64,000 bases of DNA from the NCBI GenBank assembly GCA_026415035.1, contig JAOAHX010000001.1:186001-250000 (forward strand). Reading direction: 5' to 3'. Position numbers and translations under genes: made by a program. The notes beneath the pieces are model-generated. The model saw only the letters and a program-made list of their open reading frames with translations, was not told where the DNA came from and made no database searches. Shown in pieces: positions 24,856 through 31,606 of this stretch (positions are counted from its first letter, which is position 1; every line of letters begins with the position of its first letter). This DNA comes from Thermodesulfobacteriota bacterium (GTDB lineage: Bacteria > Desulfobacterota > BSN033 > UBA1163).

Positions 24856-25254
24856 CTACTGGGTCAGGGTATAGAGAAAGTCTTTCAAGCGTTGCAAATG
24901 GTCAGGAGAGATGTCCACAAACTTTAACCCGGTTCGGTAATCGCCCCAGTCCTTCTCGAGATGAAGATCGATCCACACAACCTCCCCGATTATCTCCACC
25001 ACATTCATGTGGGCCCCGTAATGAAAAAAGAGCTTTAAGGCGAGTTGTTGCCCGATCTTCATCTTCTCGGGGAGGTAGACCAACAATCCTCCCTCGCTCG
25101 CATTGAGGGCCCGTCCCGTCCGGGTCGATGAGGAATTGAGGGTTTGATATTCGATCGGAAGATCGATGGAAAACCGGGGATACTTCCTCCTCTCAAGATT
25201 CGCAATCCCAATCCGCCCCTTCCCTTCCTGTTTCTCACCTGCCCCCGCCTCCAT
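24856..25254 (-). CDS. PilZ domain protein (c-di-GMP receptor type)
   Basis: This protein is about 132 aa (145 aa if the ATG at 25293, overlapping the upstream stop, is used). It has a PilZ domain with the c-di-GMP-binding RxxxR box in ERRKYPRF and the NASEGG ((D/N)xSxxG) motif. The beta-barrel strands VVEIIGEVVWIDLH and DYRTGLKFVDI follow. Family members bind c-di-GMP and act on motility, polysaccharide or adhesion systems, often as single-domain adaptors. It is the second of two tandem PilZ genes behind the Fe-S fusion gene. Confidence 0.82.
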   Translation of the reverse strand: MEAGAGEKQEGKGRIGIANLERRKYPRFSIDLPIEYQTLNSSSTRTGRALNASEGGLLVYLPEKMKIGQQLALKLFFHYGAHMNVVEIIGEVVWIDLHLEKDWGDYRTGLKFVDISPDHLQRLKDFLYTLTQ

Positions 25255-25273
25255 CCCTAACCCCTTCTTTTTG

Positions 25274-25681
25274 TCATGCCTCCTCAAGGGCATGATGGTT
25301 CTCTAAAAGTTCTCTCAATTTTTGGTAGTCGCTGTTTTGCATCCGAAGAAACTTCAACCCGTATTTGTAACCCTTCCAATCTTCCTCCCAATGGAGGTCC
25401 TTCCAGACGATCTCGGCCAAGACCTCGAAATTGGCCAGTTCAAACCCTTTGGGAAAAAGGACGGCGACGTTCAATTTCGTGCCAATCGATAGGTTTTTCA
25501 CCGATTGAATGAGCAGGCCCAATTCGCTCGCATTGAGGGTTAGCCCTCCGTAAAGGGAGGGGCCCTGGGTCATCTGGTATTCGAGGGGTAAATGGAGAGG
25601 CCTTCGTTTCGCTTTCCGGCGATCCCTCACACCTTTCAATCCTTCCACGGAATGCCTCCGATCATCTAAAGGGGTTTCCAT
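25274..25681 (-). CDS. PilZ domain protein
   Basis: The 135-aa protein has the RxxxR-type basic box (RDRRKAKRRP), NASELG and the strands FEVLAEIVWKDLHW and YKYGLKFLRM. The ATG at 25681 lies inside the 3' end of the upstream gene (16-bp overlap), so translation is coupled to it. A 25-codon longer ORF would sit wholly inside that gene and was rejected. It resembles the neighbouring PilZ proteins at 24.9 and 27.8 kb (shared VW-D-W...YGLKF pattern), which suggests local duplication. Confidence 0.8.
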   Translation of the reverse strand: METPLDDRRHSVEGLKGVRDRRKAKRRPLHLPLEYQMTQGPSLYGGLTLNASELGLLIQSVKNLSIGTKLNVAVLFPKGFELANFEVLAEIVWKDLHWEEDWKGYKYGLKFLRMQNSDYQKLRELLENHHALEEA

Positions 25682-27426
25682 ACCATGCCCTTCTCTGCAG
25701 GGTCGATATCGGTAAAATGTTTCGGACAAAAATGGACCATGGGACAAGGGGAACACAACGGCTGGGTGGGCAAACAGAAACCTTCTGGGGCACCGATTCG
25801 TTTCAACGGGTCCTCGATCTTCAAAGGGTCTTCTGGAAAAACAATCCGGGCGAAGGCCTGGATCTTCTTGTCTCCCATCGAACCCTTCCCTTGGTATAGG
25901 TCAAAGAGTGGATGGACCACGCCTAATCGGGCGGCCACGCGAAAGAGCCCCTCTTGAACATCAACCTCCAGATCCGAAATATCCGGGACGATTTCGGGAG
26001 CTTCGTCATGGAGGAGCCGGATGACCCAACGGCTGTTCGAACCCGTCATATGGGGAATGGTGCGGATCAGACGATCCAGGTCCGTGGTCTTCCATCCTTC
26101 CCTTTCCAAGATCCGATTGGCCACCTCCTTAAGCCTGGGGATGGCTCGAATATAGAGTTCTCTCCACACCTCCGGTGGAAAGAAGAGGTCTCCCTGCAGA
26201 ACAGGGATGTCTTTTTCTGAAATCTCCTCTTGAAGGGTCGGTGGGAAGACCTTTTGAGTATTATCGAGAGCCACCGAGGTGAGATGGGATTGGTTGAAGC
26301 GTGCGTAGATCAAGGCGGCCAAGAGAAACCCTCGGATCTGGCCCCGATCCTTCTCTCTTGGAAGAGTTCGGTACCACGAAAGGAACGGATCTTTGGAACG
26401 TGGATCCATCTCCTCAACGGTCCGACGAAAGGCCTCGAGCCAGGGATAGGTCGATGATTCTCCGGGTTCGAGAAGCTTAAGGTCAGAGAGGCTTTCGGCG
26501 CTCCCCTTTCCATCGATCCTGACCGGGGTCTGGAAAGGTCCCTCCATCTCTTCTTCGGTCACATCCAGGCGAAGCTCTTCTTTTTGATGCCCTTCCAACC
26601 GACCGGAATCCTCCCTGGGAATCGGTCCCTCCCCAGGGGATTCGACGAGGATCTCCTCCTCCCGTCGATCTTGGCTTGGAGCGGAATAGAGGTCTTCCTT
26701 CTTTTCCTCTTCGCTCCATTCGGCCTGGAAGATGTCCGGCCCCATTTCCGAGACCTCCTTCGCCTCCTCAACCCCTTTCTCTCGATCCTCTTGGGCGGCC
26801 ATCGGTTTAGGGATCGTGAATGGCACCTCGACCCAGTCCCTCCTCTTTCGAGAATCCTTCACGGAGAGAAGGCTTCCCGAAGCGGTCTTGAAGGCCAGAC
26901 CAAATGTCTTGACCGGAAGATCTCTTTCGAAAAGGGCTTTAAACGGCGCCGAGGCGTTCAAAGGTAGGGGGTCAAAGGGAAGCGGGATCTCTTCGAATGC
27001 GAGCAGCTCGTGATGTTCATCCAGGGCTTGGATCAGCGCCCAAACCTCGTTCAGTTCTTTGGGAGAAATGTTCTTGACCTTCCCGAGGACTTGCCAGTAG
27101 CCCTCGGAGGTCCTTCGGACCATCGCCGATTCGAGCGCCAAGGCGCCATTCCCTTCGGGGTGGGGCTCAAGAGCGATAGGGCATAGGGACCGCCGCCTCT
27201 CGATAGAAACGGAAGCCCCGAATTGCTCGAGAGCCTTGGCCAGTCGCTCAGCCTTTTTAAAAGGGATGTCTTTTTTAATAACGATCGGGCTACGTTGCGC
27301 GATGTTGATTAACTGTTGAAGAGGGAGTCCGTATTTTTCCGAAAATCGACTGCAGAAAGAGAGTCTCTCCTCTTCTGAGTTCTGCCCGATCCCCTCAAGA
27401 ATCACCCGATAGAGCTTCTCTTCCAT
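25666..27426 (-). CDS. Multidomain protein with endonuclease III-type [4Fe-4S] signature
   Basis: The 586-aa protein is a mosaic. About residues 5-75 resemble the L7/L12 C-terminal-like fold (SPIVIKKDIPFKKAERL, ALEQFGASVSIE). About 95-190 look like an FxLYD-type beta domain (VLGKVKNISPKELNEVW). About 190-310 are acidic and low-complexity. About 320-586 resemble a HhH-GPD DNA glycosylase: TIPHMTGSNSRWVIRLL and EGLFRVAARLGV align with the HhH and FRVxNRLG regions of Nth. The end carries C551-x6-C558-x2-C561-x5-C567, exactly the Nth/MutY cluster spacing. The Lys and Asp catalytic residues of Nth do not appear conserved. Function is unknown. It is coupled to two PilZ genes. Confidence 0.7.
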   Translation of the reverse strand: MEEKLYRVILEGIGQNSEEERLSFCSRFSEKYGLPLQQLINIAQRSPIVIKKDIPFKKAERLAKALEQFGASVSIERRRSLCPIALEPHPEGNGALALESAMVRRTSEGYWQVLGKVKNISPKELNEVWALIQALDEHHELLAFEEIPLPFDPLPLNASAPFKALFERDLPVKTFGLAFKTASGSLLSVKDSRKRRDWVEVPFTIPKPMAAQEDREKGVEEAKEVSEMGPDIFQAEWSEEEKKEDLYSAPSQDRREEEILVESPGEGPIPREDSGRLEGHQKEELRLDVTEEEMEGPFQTPVRIDGKGSAESLSDLKLLEPGESSTYPWLEAFRRTVEEMDPRSKDPFLSWYRTLPREKDRGQIRGFLLAALIYARFNQSHLTSVALDNTQKVFPPTLQEEISEKDIPVLQGDLFFPPEVWRELYIRAIPRLKEVANRILEREGWKTTDLDRLIRTIPHMTGSNSRWVIRLLHDEAPEIVPDISDLEVDVQEGLFRVAARLGVVHPLFDLYQGKGSMGDKKIQAFARIVFPEDPLKIEDPLKRIGAPEGFCLPTQPLCSPCPMVHFCPKHFTDIDPAEKGMVWKPL

Positions 27427-27519
27427 TTTTTCGGTTCTCTCACTTCATCTGATGGCCTCTTGGACAAACCGTCCCTAAAAGCTACGCGATCTTCGGGATG
27501 GAGAAGACAATCCTTAATT

Positions 27520-27548
27520 CTATTAATTTTTAAAAAAAGTCAAGTCAA
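27520..27548 (-). promoter_or_regulatory. Promoter of the Fe-S fusion/PilZ operon
   Basis: On the minus strand, TTGACT (27543-27548), a 17-base spacer and TAATAG (27520-27525). A second TTGACT overlaps it at 27538-27543. The leader to the ATG at 27426 is about 85 bases. The gap 27427-27621 holds nothing else that I can support. Confidence 0.55.
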
Positions 27549-27621
27549 TTTTTGGGATCCACGAAGACCGGGGGGAAAACTTGAAGACCTTTAGGAAGGG
27601 AGGCGCGGTTTCGGGACTGGG

Positions 27622-28086
27622 CTATTTCCCGATCTCCTTGAGCAATTGGATCAAGCGATTGTAATCCGCCTCTTCGATGTGGACGAACTGGAGGCCATAA
27701 CGATATTCTCCATAGCTCTCCCTGGCAGCAAAATCAGACCACACGATTTTGGCCACCGCCTTGATCGTGTTGAACTCCAAGCCCTGGACGTAAAGAATCT
27801 CTATTTTAAGGAGCTCACCGATCGCCAACCGCTGGGGTAAATACACCAGAAGTCCACCCTCGCTCACATTGGCGACCATTCCTCCGTAGGTTTCCTTTTC
27901 TTCGATCCGCGAGTAATCGAGGGGGAACTCCGCGGCATACCGGGGGTGTTTCCTCTTCTCAACGGCAAAGACCCCCATTCTTTTTTCTGGGTTTGTTCTG
28001 TTGTTCATGACCATAAATTGTGCATATTCAATGCCATCTACAGGAAATGGGGTTTGCAAATGAGATTTAGAGTCTAATTTGGTCAT
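27622..28086 (-). CDS. PilZ domain protein
   Basis: The ORF is up to 154 aa, with a PilZ domain from about residue 42: EKRKHPRYAAEFPLDY (RxxxR), NVSEGGLLVYLP and YRYGLQFVHIEEADYN. No ribosome site fits the first ATG, and internal ATGs at 28014, 28008 and 27978 are alternatives, so the N-terminus is uncertain. A role in c-di-GMP binding is expected from the intact motifs. It is the third PilZ gene within 3.3 kb and is separated from the Fe-S fusion gene by its own intergenic region. Confidence 0.8.
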   Translation of the reverse strand: MTKLDSKSHLQTPFPVDGIEYAQFMVMNNRTNPEKRMGVFAVEKRKHPRYAAEFPLDYSRIEEKETYGGMVANVSEGGLLVYLPQRLAIGELLKIEILYVQGLEFNTIKAVAKIVWSDFAARESYGEYRYGLQFVHIEEADYNRLIQLLKEIGK

Positions 28087-28251: not shown

Positions 28252-28776
28252 TCACTTGACCCATTCGGCCTTGGCTTTATAGAATTCTGCCTCCTCCGGG
28301 ATCTTTTTCTCCAACATCATTTTGGCCTCTTCGGTCAAGCTCCTGTAATGATCCATCTCTTGTTTGATCCTGTCCCTTTCTTGCCGGATCTGTTGCCTCG
28401 CGATGGTAGTCTTCGCATCGTTGAATTTTTCGGTAAGCTCGTTATATTTGACTCTCAATTCCTCCAATTTTTCTTGGGCCGATTTCAACCGCTTCCTCCA
28501 TTCTTCGACTCGGTTTCTCCAGTATTCTTCACCCCTTCCCAACCGGTCCTTATAAGGCTCGCCCTTGCTCTCTCTCGGGGAGGCCTCCCCTGATCTGAGC
28601 GCGGGCCTTTCTTCCTTCACCCCGACTTCATCTGCCTTTGACCGGTATTTTTCGGGGACATTGGTTGGGTCGTCGGTAAAATGGACCACCCCTTTCTCGT
28701 CTACCCATTTATAGATCTGGCCATAACTCACTTTGGTTATGCCGATTATGAGGAGAAAAAGGAGTAATTTTTTCAT
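28252..28776 (-). CDS. DUF4124 domain exported protein with coiled coil
   Basis: The protein of about 174 aa has a short signal peptide (MKKLLLFLLIIGITKVSYG) followed at once by the DUF4124 motif IYKWVDEKGVVHFTDDP. A charged linker and a long coiled coil (about 85-165, EEWRKRLKSAQEKLEELRVKY and onwards) follow. DUF4124 proteins are periplasmic or envelope proteins of unknown role, common in proteobacteria. The ATG at 28776 has GAGG before it; a start three codons upstream is possible. Its promoter side faces the divergent small RNA. Confidence 0.8.
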   Translation of the reverse strand: MKKLLLFLLIIGITKVSYGQIYKWVDEKGVVHFTDDPTNVPEKYRSKADEVGVKEERPALRSGEASPRESKGEPYKDRLGRGEEYWRNRVEEWRKRLKSAQEKLEELRVKYNELTEKFNDAKTTIARQQIRQERDRIKQEMDHYRSLTEEAKMMLEKKIPEEAEFYKAKAEWVK

Positions 28777-28820
28777 CGGCCTCATTTCAGCAAATTTTAT
28801 GCCACTTTTTTATTTTTCCA

Positions 28821-28849
28821 TTGATATTTTCGAGGATATCTTTTATAAT
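28821..28849 (+). promoter_or_regulatory. Consensus promoter of the candidate small RNA
   Basis: TTGATA (28821-28826), a 17-base spacer and a perfect TATAAT (28844-28849). The first base of the predicted transcript, seven bases past the -10, is G28856, which is also the first base of hairpin 1. No coding sequence follows, which points to an RNA gene. Confidence 0.75.
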
Positions 28850-28855
28850 ATATCT

Positions 28856-28954
28856 GCCGGTACATCAAACCATATCACCTCCTATTTCACCCCCATTTGG
28901 TGTACTGGCGGGGATCAGTTATGGCCCTCCTCTAACTGATCCCTTTTTATTTTT
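28856..28954 (+). ncRNA. Candidate small regulatory RNA with anti-Shine-Dalgarno loops
   Basis: The predicted transcript of about 99 nt consists almost entirely of two hairpins. Hairpin 1 pairs 28856-28869 with 28896-28909 (14 continuous pairs, two of them G-U) around a 26-nt unpaired loop. That loop contains AUCACCUCCU (28874-28883), ten bases identical to the anti-SD tail of 16S rRNA, plus a CACCCCC run. Hairpin 2 (28911-28943) is the terminator, and its loop also has CCCUCCUC. A consensus promoter starts exactly at the hairpin and a U-tract ends it. CU-rich loops of this kind in known small RNAs (for example RsaE and cuckoo-type RNAs) block ribosome binding sites. A similar role is inferred. 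No known family could be assigned. Confidence 0.7.
28911..28954 (+). terminator. Intrinsic terminator of the small RNA
   Basis: An 11-bp perfect stem, GGGATCAGTTA/TAACTGATCCC (28911-28921 and 28933-28943), with loop TGGCCCTCCTC, is followed by TTTTTATTTTT. The T-tract is on the plus strand only, which fixes the direction. Confidence 0.85.
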
Positions 28955-29212: not shown

Positions 29213-30838
29213 CTACCGGTTTTTCTCGAGGGGGTTGAAATACTCCCGAATCCTGCCCAGCACGATATGGGGGATGTCCTCCTTCTTTTTTACGAGGAAG
29301 AGGCTGATGTTCTTTTTCTTTTCGACGGCCTTCCCAAAGCGTGAGGCGTAGGGATTTTCACCGATATGCACAGCGGTCACCCGGTTTTGGATCTTTCCAA
29401 AAAAACTGATCAACGATTCCAGATTGGTGATCTTCATGTCCGTGATGATAAAGAGATCGGGTTCCTTTTTCCTTTTGATCAACGGAAGGATGTCCTCCAG
29501 GTCAAGCGCCGTCCCCCCGCCGAAATATTTACACAAGGCCCGGTAAATCTCCTGACGATTGGTTGTATAATCGAGGATCTCCCGCCCTCCCATGGGTGCA
29601 TCGCTGAAATTGTACACGGCCACCTTCGAATTGTTCTTGAGATAGGCATTGGTGACACAAGCCGCTCCCAGAACGGCATAGGAGAGGTTTTTTCGAGGGT
29701 TGATCATGCTTCCAGACGAATCGATGATGATGAGGCAGTCTGGTGTGCCCTCCATCCTCCCTCGACCCACCCCCTCTTTCTTCTTCCAGGTCTGGGTGAT
29801 CCCGGGCATAATTTTCCCGAAGCTGGTCCAGATGTCGATATCCTGGAACGGGGCCCCCACCTCCCAAGGGGCATGGGAATGGGGGTGGAGAACACCCGAT
29901 GATTCGAGAGGAAGTTTTTTAAGGGGGATGGAATAATTCTCGGCCAGTTTCATGTAAAAAAGAATATCGGCATCGATGGCCGTTCCCTTGCCACGCCCCA
30001 TGCCCCCTTCCATTCCGTATCCTACTTCTTTCAGCTCTGAGGAGAAATCTTCGACCACCTCTCTGAATTCCGAGAGGACCATGGTTTTTTGAGCGTAATC
30101 CCTCAACCCCTGATCGATCTCCTCATAGGTATAGTGGTTCAAGTCATGCTCTCCCAGGGGGTTGGAATCCCCCTTCCCTCCGCCGGACTCCTTCCTTTGC
30201 TGCTCCATGACGAGAAGGGGTTTGATCGACCGGGCAAACTTCCGGATGCTTTCCATCCATCGGGACCGGTCCAGATAGGGGATTCTCGCAAGCCTCCGGA
30301 TGACCTCCTCGTGGGCTTTCTTGGAGGTGGAGATGCCCAGATCGACCCCCCAGATTTTTTGGTAGACCGAGGCGATCACCTCCTCCACCGGGCCTTTTTT
30401 TAAGTTTCGATACAGTTCGGGGATGTCGGTCGGACGTTTCTTGACACAATGGGTGTCGGCGATCATATCGATAAAATGGGCGGCGGCCCGTTTAGCAATC
30501 TCCTTGTCGCCCATCACTTTCTTGGCCTCTGCGTAAAGGGAGAGGTGAGTTTGAAAATCCCATGGGCAGAAGGTATAGTGAGTGATCCCGTGGTCCAGGA
30601 GGGCCTCGATCAGCACCTCCTCATCCATCTTCCCCTTCATGGTCGTGACGAAGGCGGGATTGATGGTCAGCTGCTTCTCTTTCATCTCCAAGCCGACCCT
30701 ATCGTTCCCCTCGTTGCCTTCGCCACCTTTGTCCTCGATCTTCCCCACCTTCGGCATGGGGATCTCGGGATAGAGGTGCTTTCTCCGGAGCCTGGGCCAC
30801 ATTTCTTCAATGAGGGCTTGGATCCTTTCCTCTTCCAT
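29213..30838 (-). CDS. VWA (von Willebrand factor A) domain protein
   Basis: The soluble 541-aa protein has a C-terminal VWA domain with a complete MIDAS: DSSGSM at 373-378, the Thr of GGGTALD near 443 and ITDMK near 467. The N-terminal 300 residues are charged, with a DHGITHYTFCPWD segment reminiscent of the inactive metallopeptidase-like regions that precede some VWA domains (DUF2201-type), but this is weak. The start MEEERIQ at 30838 follows AGAGGAAGG. It is the last gene of the MoxR-GXGXG-VWA set. Pairing of MoxR ATPases with VWA proteins is well established (for example RavA/ViaA), usually for metal insertion or complex remodelling. Confidence 0.85.
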   Translation of the reverse strand: MEEERIQALIEEMWPRLRRKHLYPEIPMPKVGKIEDKGGEGNEGNDRVGLEMKEKQLTINPAFVTTMKGKMDEEVLIEALLDHGITHYTFCPWDFQTHLSLYAEAKKVMGDKEIAKRAAAHFIDMIADTHCVKKRPTDIPELYRNLKKGPVEEVIASVYQKIWGVDLGISTSKKAHEEVIRRLARIPYLDRSRWMESIRKFARSIKPLLVMEQQRKESGGGKGDSNPLGEHDLNHYTYEEIDQGLRDYAQKTMVLSEFREVVEDFSSELKEVGYGMEGGMGRGKGTAIDADILFYMKLAENYSIPLKKLPLESSGVLHPHSHAPWEVGAPFQDIDIWTSFGKIMPGITQTWKKKEGVGRGRMEGTPDCLIIIDSSGSMINPRKNLSYAVLGAACVTNAYLKNNSKVAVYNFSDAPMGGREILDYTTNRQEIYRALCKYFGGGTALDLEDILPLIKRKKEPDLFIITDMKITNLESLISFFGKIQNRVTAVHIGENPYASRFGKAVEKKKNISLFLVKKKEDIPHIVLGRIREYFNPLEKNR

Positions 30839-30853
30839 CCTTCCTCTCACCCT

Positions 30854-31606
30854 TTAGTAATATTGGTTGGGGAATCGGGCCTTTCCTGGGTAGACGAGCC
30901 GATCCCTCTCGTATATTTTCCCCTCGACGATATTCCCGAGCCCCCTCACTCTCCCTTCCGCATAGATCTCGCCACCCATCATCCATTCGCCGGTATGAAG
31001 ACCGATATTCTTTCGGACAAGAATCTTTCCGGAGCGCATCCCCGCCCCGGTCCAATTCTTTGTATTTCCTTCGATGATCAACTCGCCCCCCTCGAGGCCG
31101 ATCCCGGTAAAATCGCCGGTATCGCCCTCGATGATCAATCGCTTCCCTTTGGGAAGACGGAATCCGATGAGGTTGATCTCCGTCTTGAGCTCCGAAAGTT
31201 TCAATACGATCTCCTCCTCCTTCGCATAATTGCAGAGGGCGGAGATGTAGATCCCGGCCGGTCCCGGAATCAGGTAGGGGCCCTTCTGGGGGCTCTCGAG
31301 GGCGAAACAGAAGTCTTCGATGTCCTCGGCCGTATAATCGATCTCCTTCACATATTTCTCTGCCACCTCATAGGCTCGAATGATTGTATTGTACTGGACC
31401 ATCCAGACCAGTTCCTTCGCCTCTTCTTCGAGAAGCTTTTCGTAGCCCTGGCGGATCTGATTCATGGTCGCCTCGGTCGTCTGAACGATCCGGTCCAGAG
31501 GGATCTCTTTCGGTTGATAAGTATAGGTCGTAAATTCCTCAAAAGGATTGAGGAGTCGCCGTAGTCCCTGTCCGAGAGAGAGATTCACGGAATCGTCACG
31601 GTCCAT
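30854..31606 (-). CDS. GXGXG beta-helix protein (glutamate synthase C-terminal/FwdC-like)
   Basis: In this 250-aa protein the second half is a run of GxxGxxxGxG-type repeats: EGDTGDFTGIGLEGGELIIEG, GNTKNWTGAGMRSGKILV and HTGEWMMGGEIYAEG. This is the right-handed beta-helix found at the C-terminus of glutamate synthase and in subunit C of formylmethanofuran dehydrogenase. The first half is helical and unassigned. No glutamate synthase or formylmethanofuran dehydrogenase catalytic subunit is present nearby. It sits 11 bases after the AAA gene and 15 bases before the VWA gene, so it is part of that operon and probably a structural or substrate component of the machine. Confidence 0.78.
   Translation of the reverse strand: MDRDDSVNLSLGQGLRRLLNPFEEFTTYTYQPKEIPLDRIVQTTEATMNQIRQGYEKLLEEEAKELVWMVQYNTIIRAYEVAEKYVKEIDYTAEDIEDFCFALESPQKGPYLIPGPAGIYISALCNYAKEEEIVLKLSELKTEINLIGFRLPKGKRLIIEGDTGDFTGIGLEGGELIIEGNTKNWTGAGMRSGKILVRKNIGLHTGEWMMGGEIYAEGRVRGLGNIVEGKIYERDRLVYPGKARFPNQYY

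Follow-up and report, generated by a model that had tools for sequence, protein, structure and literature searches.

Does the short intergenic stretch at positions 28821-28954 of the window (the whole 64,000-nucleotide piece of Thermodesulfobacteriota bacterium DNA analysed here; genome G000) encode a small RNA that exposes an anti-Shine-Dalgarno (anti-SD) sequence, and which messenger RNA would its loops recognize? Based on sequence reading and on the same placement in the homologues, a sigma70-type promoter (TTGATA at 28821-28826, 17-bp spacer, TATAAT at 28844-28849; plus strand) precedes a predicted start at G28856, seven bases past the -10 box; fold, conservation and covariation delimit from there a plus-strand gene of approximately 99 nt (28856-28954) that ends within a U-tract. 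Hairpin 1 (28856-28909; fold and covariation) consists of a 14-bp stem (28856-28869 with 28896-28909) and a 26-nt C/U-rich loop, CCATATCACCTCCTATTTCACCCCCA (28870-28895), which is proposed from the pairing analyses as the target-recognition loop and contains ATCACCTCCT at 28874-28883 (RNA form AUCACCUCCU) as well as CACCCCC. Separated by a single base (28910), the intrinsic terminator follows on the same strand (28911-28954; reading, fold and covariation): an 11-bp stem (28911-28921/28933-28943) encloses the C/U-rich loop TGGCCCTCCTC (28922-28932; RNA form CCCUCCUC), possibly a second pairing loop, and is followed by the U-tract (28944-28954). All of these elements were located to the base where the original prediction had placed them; its statement that the RNA is free of reading frames was borne out as well, as no credible ORF runs across the sRNA and the mechanically called frames that cross it are short and have TTG starts far upstream.

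The calculated minimum free energy of the sRNA (-38.4 kcal/mol) is far lower than that of shuffled sequences (-18.7 +/- 2.8 kcal/mol; z = -7.0; 0 of 200 shuffles as stable), and the stretch is present in a single copy within G000. In agreement with its earlier description as an undescribed RNA, the Rfam 15 covariance models gave no match at the sRNA locus at gathering or at relaxed (E<=5) thresholds, the sole match in the window being a tRNA away from it. BLAST analysis over 59 relatives revealed the sRNA in 16 of the 17 genomes of G000's own family (f1) and no convincing score outside f1; G012 harbors two copies, the other sRNA-bearing f1 genomes one. A covariance model built from 17 sequences of these 16 genomes (G012 entering twice) additionally detected divergent homologues in two of the four genomes of the sister family f2 (G021 and G022; E ~1e-11). 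In wider searches of the phylum (297 and 395 genomes), no clear homologue emerged outside the class (one marginal match among the 395, in G294, with E 0.006), and when 84,980 species genomes were scanned for exact matches to the terminator hairpin, these were limited to this lineage, including the records Deltaproteobacteria bacterium RBG_16_49_23 and 'Syntrophaceae bacterium' UBA1163. Two weak model matches were rejected as sRNA genes: that of G010, where the region appears coding, and that of G016 (G016:C189), which is the antisense of an M23 peptidase leader (see below). In a third family, the marginal match of G019 (L052:985-1094, minus strand; E 0.096) comprises a promoter-like box, a stem with the loop UUUACCUCCC and a long terminator hairpin whose loop contains GCCCCCC; despite the similar promoter and the two hairpins with C-rich loops, its marginal score makes it no more than a possible distant homologue.

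Both stems of the homologues are conserved with compensatory changes. Within f1, 9 of the 14 pairs of stem 1 were altered on both sides (11 of 14 with f2 included), while the terminator stem and loop are almost invariant; f2 adds two compensatory pairs to the terminator stem (UA to CG). Altogether 13 pairs changed on both sides, values that none of 500 shuffles reached, and slid controls scored far lower. In the plus-strand reading the alignment holds 26 G-U versus 5 A-C cells, which favors this strand. In f1, TTGAT-like -35 and TATAAT-like -10 boxes precede the hairpin at a constant position, and in f2 the promoter is conserved as TTGAAT-N17-TATAAT. Judged from these sequence data, the element is a real, previously uncatalogued sRNA gene, to all appearance transcribed independently, and not a product of chance.

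The sRNA occupies the same locus in nearly every bearing genome. It is divergent to the gene of a DUF4124/coiled-coil secreted protein (28252-28785, minus strand) in f1 and also in f2, which argues for an inherited chromosomal locus and against a mobile repeat; on its other side, the convergent gene of a VWA-domain protein (29213-30850, minus strand) is the neighbour in f1. In the wider surroundings, the gene of a GXGXG/FwdC-like protein (30854-31606, minus strand), its formylmethanofuran dehydrogenase subunit C domain scoring below cut-off, lies between the VWA and AAA genes, and three PilZ-type proteins are clustered beside the sRNA locus (24856-28086, minus strand; Pfam comparison of the 154-aa protein only). 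Between the sRNA promoter and the DUF4124 gene, a sigma54-like element, TGGCA-N6-TTGC (~28781-28796, minus strand), is present in 16 of 16 f1 loci; it is near the sigma54 consensus TGGCAC-N5-TTGC, is retained in G001 even though no DUF4124 gene was detected there, and is not evident in f2. If this element is a promoter, the DUF4124 mRNA would start a few bases before the ATG (28776-28796) and would have no usual SD sequence in most relatives. The second copy of G012 (L022:1491-1588; G012:C56) is diverged and situated at a separate locus without a DUF4124 neighbour. At the syntenic place of G020 (f2), the DUF4124 gene is present, and promoter, hairpin 1 and half of the terminator are missing, the terminator 3' half alone remaining (L170, about 2075-2110); this clean loss implies that at least one lineage can do without the sRNA, unless the G020 assembly is faulty there. 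The best DUF4124 relative of G010 (L172), a genome in which the sRNA was not found, contains an in-frame TAG; this genome may have lost the sRNA and its neighbour jointly.

The original prediction had centered on a copy of the 16S rRNA anti-SD sequence in the hairpin loop. In G000 such a copy is present, as AUCACCUCCU is identical to the general bacterial 16S 3' tail, which served as the reference. The stretch is, however, altered in G016, G014, G008, G001, G004, G002 and the second G012 copy and gone from the f2 loops, the variants of this loop half among the relatives being CACCCCC, GCGCCUCC, CACCUCA, CACCACC, UCUCUCU and UCCCACU; the 16S-tail copy was therefore rejected as the feature that selection keeps. 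Better kept than AUCACCUCCU are GUUUCACCYCC and the CCCUCCU of the terminator loop, and most loops retain ACCUCC or CCUCC while the remainder varies. By this comparison, the conserved property is the C/U-rich loops including a specific UUUCACC part, and the more general proposal of plus-strand C/U-rich loops suited to pairing with SD sequences is supported. The target suggested earlier, the SD sequence GGAGGTGAT preceding a sixA-like gene (window position 1418), does match the loop perfectly but is not distinguished by this: the 9-mer occurs 7 times in the window (once as the complement of the sRNA itself), a 9-nt match to the loop is reached by 6 of 266 sampled gene starts, and the gene, being no better than many other SDs, was discarded as a special target.

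A different candidate surfaced via the family-wide covariance model search, namely the M23 peptidase leader of G016 (GGGGTGAAACAAGGAGGT): the weak match in this genome is the antisense of the leader GGGGTGAAACAAGGAGGTAATTTTG, immediately 5' of the M23 start codon. The corresponding gene of G000, which codes for a peptidoglycan peptidase, is located on another contig, outside the window, between a tldD/pmbA-like gene and secA (names from reading the translations). In its product the M23 domain is complete (Pfam E 1.5e-30), and the NCBIfam models that come closest, MepM and Pgp3, both stay below cut-off. Between the loop part CTCCTATTTCACCC (within 28879-28893) and the leader sequence GGGTGAAATAGGAG (G000:C20:42558-42571), 14 contiguous Watson-Crick pairs are counted over the SD, compared with a maximum of 9 at 266 other starts, sampled from the contig of the window (~10% of the G000 genome). 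When the 16-nt loop complement was compared with both strands of the whole G000 genome at <=1 mismatch, the sRNA itself and the M23 leader were the only matches (~0.07 expected in random sequence by our arithmetic); none of the seven 2-mismatch matches precedes a convincing gene start. Most M23 leaders of f1 carry a TGAAACAAGGRG-like site over the SD (e.g. G003 GGGTGAAACAAGGGG, G005 GGGTGAAACAAGGAGGG, G001 ATGAAACAAGGGG), and paralogous M23-like genes of the same genomes are without it; in several genomes there is an additional, shorter gene that resembles the N-terminal half of the M23 protein, likewise without the site (L112-L118). The mean contiguous pairing of the loops with the M23 leader of the own genome amounts to 10.1 bp, that with the VWA, FwdC-like, PilZ, DUF4124 and SecA leaders to 5.0-6.1 bp. 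An exact 12-nt search with TGAAACAAGGRG in 17 genomes gave 53 places; besides the sRNA loci, M23 was the only recurring gene start (six genomes), all other gene-start matches being singletons.

Loop and leader also changed together. The loop junction of G000 is unlike that of all relatives (CUCC-UAUUUCACC versus CUCCUUGUUUCACC; one base deleted and one substitution), and its M23 leader mirrors this change exactly (GGGTGAAATAGGAG versus GGGTGAAACAAGGRG elsewhere). In G012, the M23 target AAGGAGCTT (GGAGCTT) suits the second-copy loop AAGCUCCUU better than the first-copy loop, with 13-14 contiguous pairs, one or more of them G-U. Complementarity between the loop and the M23 ribosome-binding region is, as far as sequence comparison can establish it, shown to recur across the family and to follow the loop changes. 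Exceptions exist: the M23 leader of G009 is without the site and that of G004 keeps 8 nt of it; the G002 and G006 assemblies did not yield an M23 gene, and G015 yielded the N-terminal paralogue only. Pairing with the own leader was modestly better than with swapped leaders (219 of 5000 permutations as good), a test that is inflated by relatedness. In f2, loop and M23 leader match over 8 bp (AGGUGAAA with UUUCACCU), and the C-to-U change of the loop between f1 and f2 is met by a G-to-A change in the leader; this is weak evidence, since G017 and G020, in which the sRNA was not detected, keep the same leader as the other f2 genomes.

The explanation that accounts best for these observations is probably that of a trans-acting base-pairing sRNA which pairs with the ribosome-binding site in the M23 leader and blocks M23 translation, with other strong SDs as possible secondary targets. 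A general anti-SD silencer, of the kind proposed for redundant anti-SD motifs in the alpha-r14 RNAs, whose loops would pair with many strong SDs without a principal target and for which M23 would be one of many, is considered unlikely, yet several observations speak for it: 15 of the 266 sampled starts reach a hybrid energy of -26.3 kcal/mol or better, so that M23 is not singled out; there are two C/U-rich loops; and ACCUCC or CCUCC persists in most loops of the homologues within an otherwise variable context. Hybrid energy is, however, uninformative as a target finder because the loop binds any G-rich SD, and its equal values rather make a weaker action on other G-rich SDs likely. Against a general silencer stand the GGGTGAAAC/U part upstream of the SD, which is what is shared with M23 and is unneeded for generic SD pairing, the uniqueness of M23 as a recurring gene start with an extended match, and the joint change of loop and leader in G000. 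A further-reaching version of the M23 explanation, to which we give slightly less than an even chance, is that the sRNA is specific to the lineage and has evolved together with what is in essence a single mRNA, that of the M23 gene before secA, its anti-SD loop having become gene-specific by extension into the bases upstream of the SD.

Mechanistically, the rigid hairpin 1 presents the 26-nt C/U-rich loop, which is predicted to pair with the M23 leader over a stretch that begins ~8 nt before the SD and includes the SD itself; the pairing would exclude the 30S subunit and thereby lower the synthesis of the M23 peptidase. Hfq on the U-tail probably assists: it is encoded in 23 of 23 class genomes, and chaperoned pairing is for this reason possible. 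The terminator loop and the ACCUCC part may allow weaker silencing of other strong-SD mRNAs. As the C/U-rich loop matches the M23 ribosome-binding site, the sRNA most likely turns M23 translation off. The opposite sign, an activation by opening of an inhibitory leader structure or by protection of the mRNA, has a precedent in PmaR of Agrobacterium, a C-rich-loop RNA with a positive effect on the majority of its targets (PMC6234868). It appears improbable here, since the SD itself lies within the paired stretch, and pairing at this site as a rule prevents initiation. More doubtful still is that the RNA, instead of base pairing, serves as a decoy for a protein recognizing the 16S 3' tail, such as Era, which binds this region: the exact AUCACCUCC in the open loop of G000 would suit such a role, but several homologues have a changed version of this stretch and f2 has none, whereas the parts relevant for pairing persist, and the complementarity to M23 would be left unexplained. 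That the minus strand is the functional RNA, of the CsrA-sequestering type with GGA-bearing loops (reading of the reverse complement places AGGAGG and GAGGAGG in loops), can practically be dismissed in view of promoter and U-tract on the plus strand of the homologues and of the G-U excess there.

The inhibitory M23 explanation places the RNA among the trans-acting CU-rich-loop sRNAs: it has an own promoter and terminator, a conserved structure, an accessible C/U-rich loop and conserved complementarity to the ribosome-binding site of a trans-encoded mRNA. The alpha-r14/NfeR1 ('cuckoo') RNAs of alphaproteobacteria likewise present anti-SD motifs in hairpin loops, by which targets are silenced at the translation initiation region (PMC10746234); in contrast to their three hairpins with an identical CCUCCUCCC in each loop and variable stems, the window sRNA has two hairpins with different loops, belongs to another lineage and shows a longer, gene-specific match. 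The C/U-rich sites of LhrC in Listeria are distributed over a stem-loop and the terminator loop, and the RNA blocks the SD of lapB (PMC4132741); this firmicute RNA, however, exists in five copies with UCCC motifs in three redundant CU-rich sites including a single-stranded linker, whereas the window sRNA has two sites only and no sequence match to it (no Rfam hit). The actinobacterial 6C/B11 RNA also pairs with ribosome-binding sites via two C-rich loops (PMC10470900), but both of these are runs of cytosines in another phylum, whereas the G000 loops (CACCCCC and GGCCCUCCUC) lack a C6 run, and the window sRNA gave no Rfam hit. PmaR resembles it in shape (long stem with one large C-rich loop) and in cell-wall-related targets and differs in its mostly positive regulation as well as in sequence, lineage and individual targets (PMC6234868). 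By these comparisons, the window sRNA represents a new RNA family with a predicted function that is known already, the occlusion of ribosome-binding sites by C/U-rich-loop sRNAs.

Genomes alone have thus supplied an uncultured class of deltaproteobacteria with a structured sRNA family, its covariance model and a candidate mRNA target. The G000 case, a species in which loop and target changed together, indicates how an anti-SD loop, often regarded as promiscuous, can become specific for one gene when its pairing reaches past the SD. If the further-reaching version with essentially one co-evolved mRNA holds, cell-wall cleavage would be coupled in these bacteria to the signal that controls the sRNA and its conserved sigma54-like upstream element.
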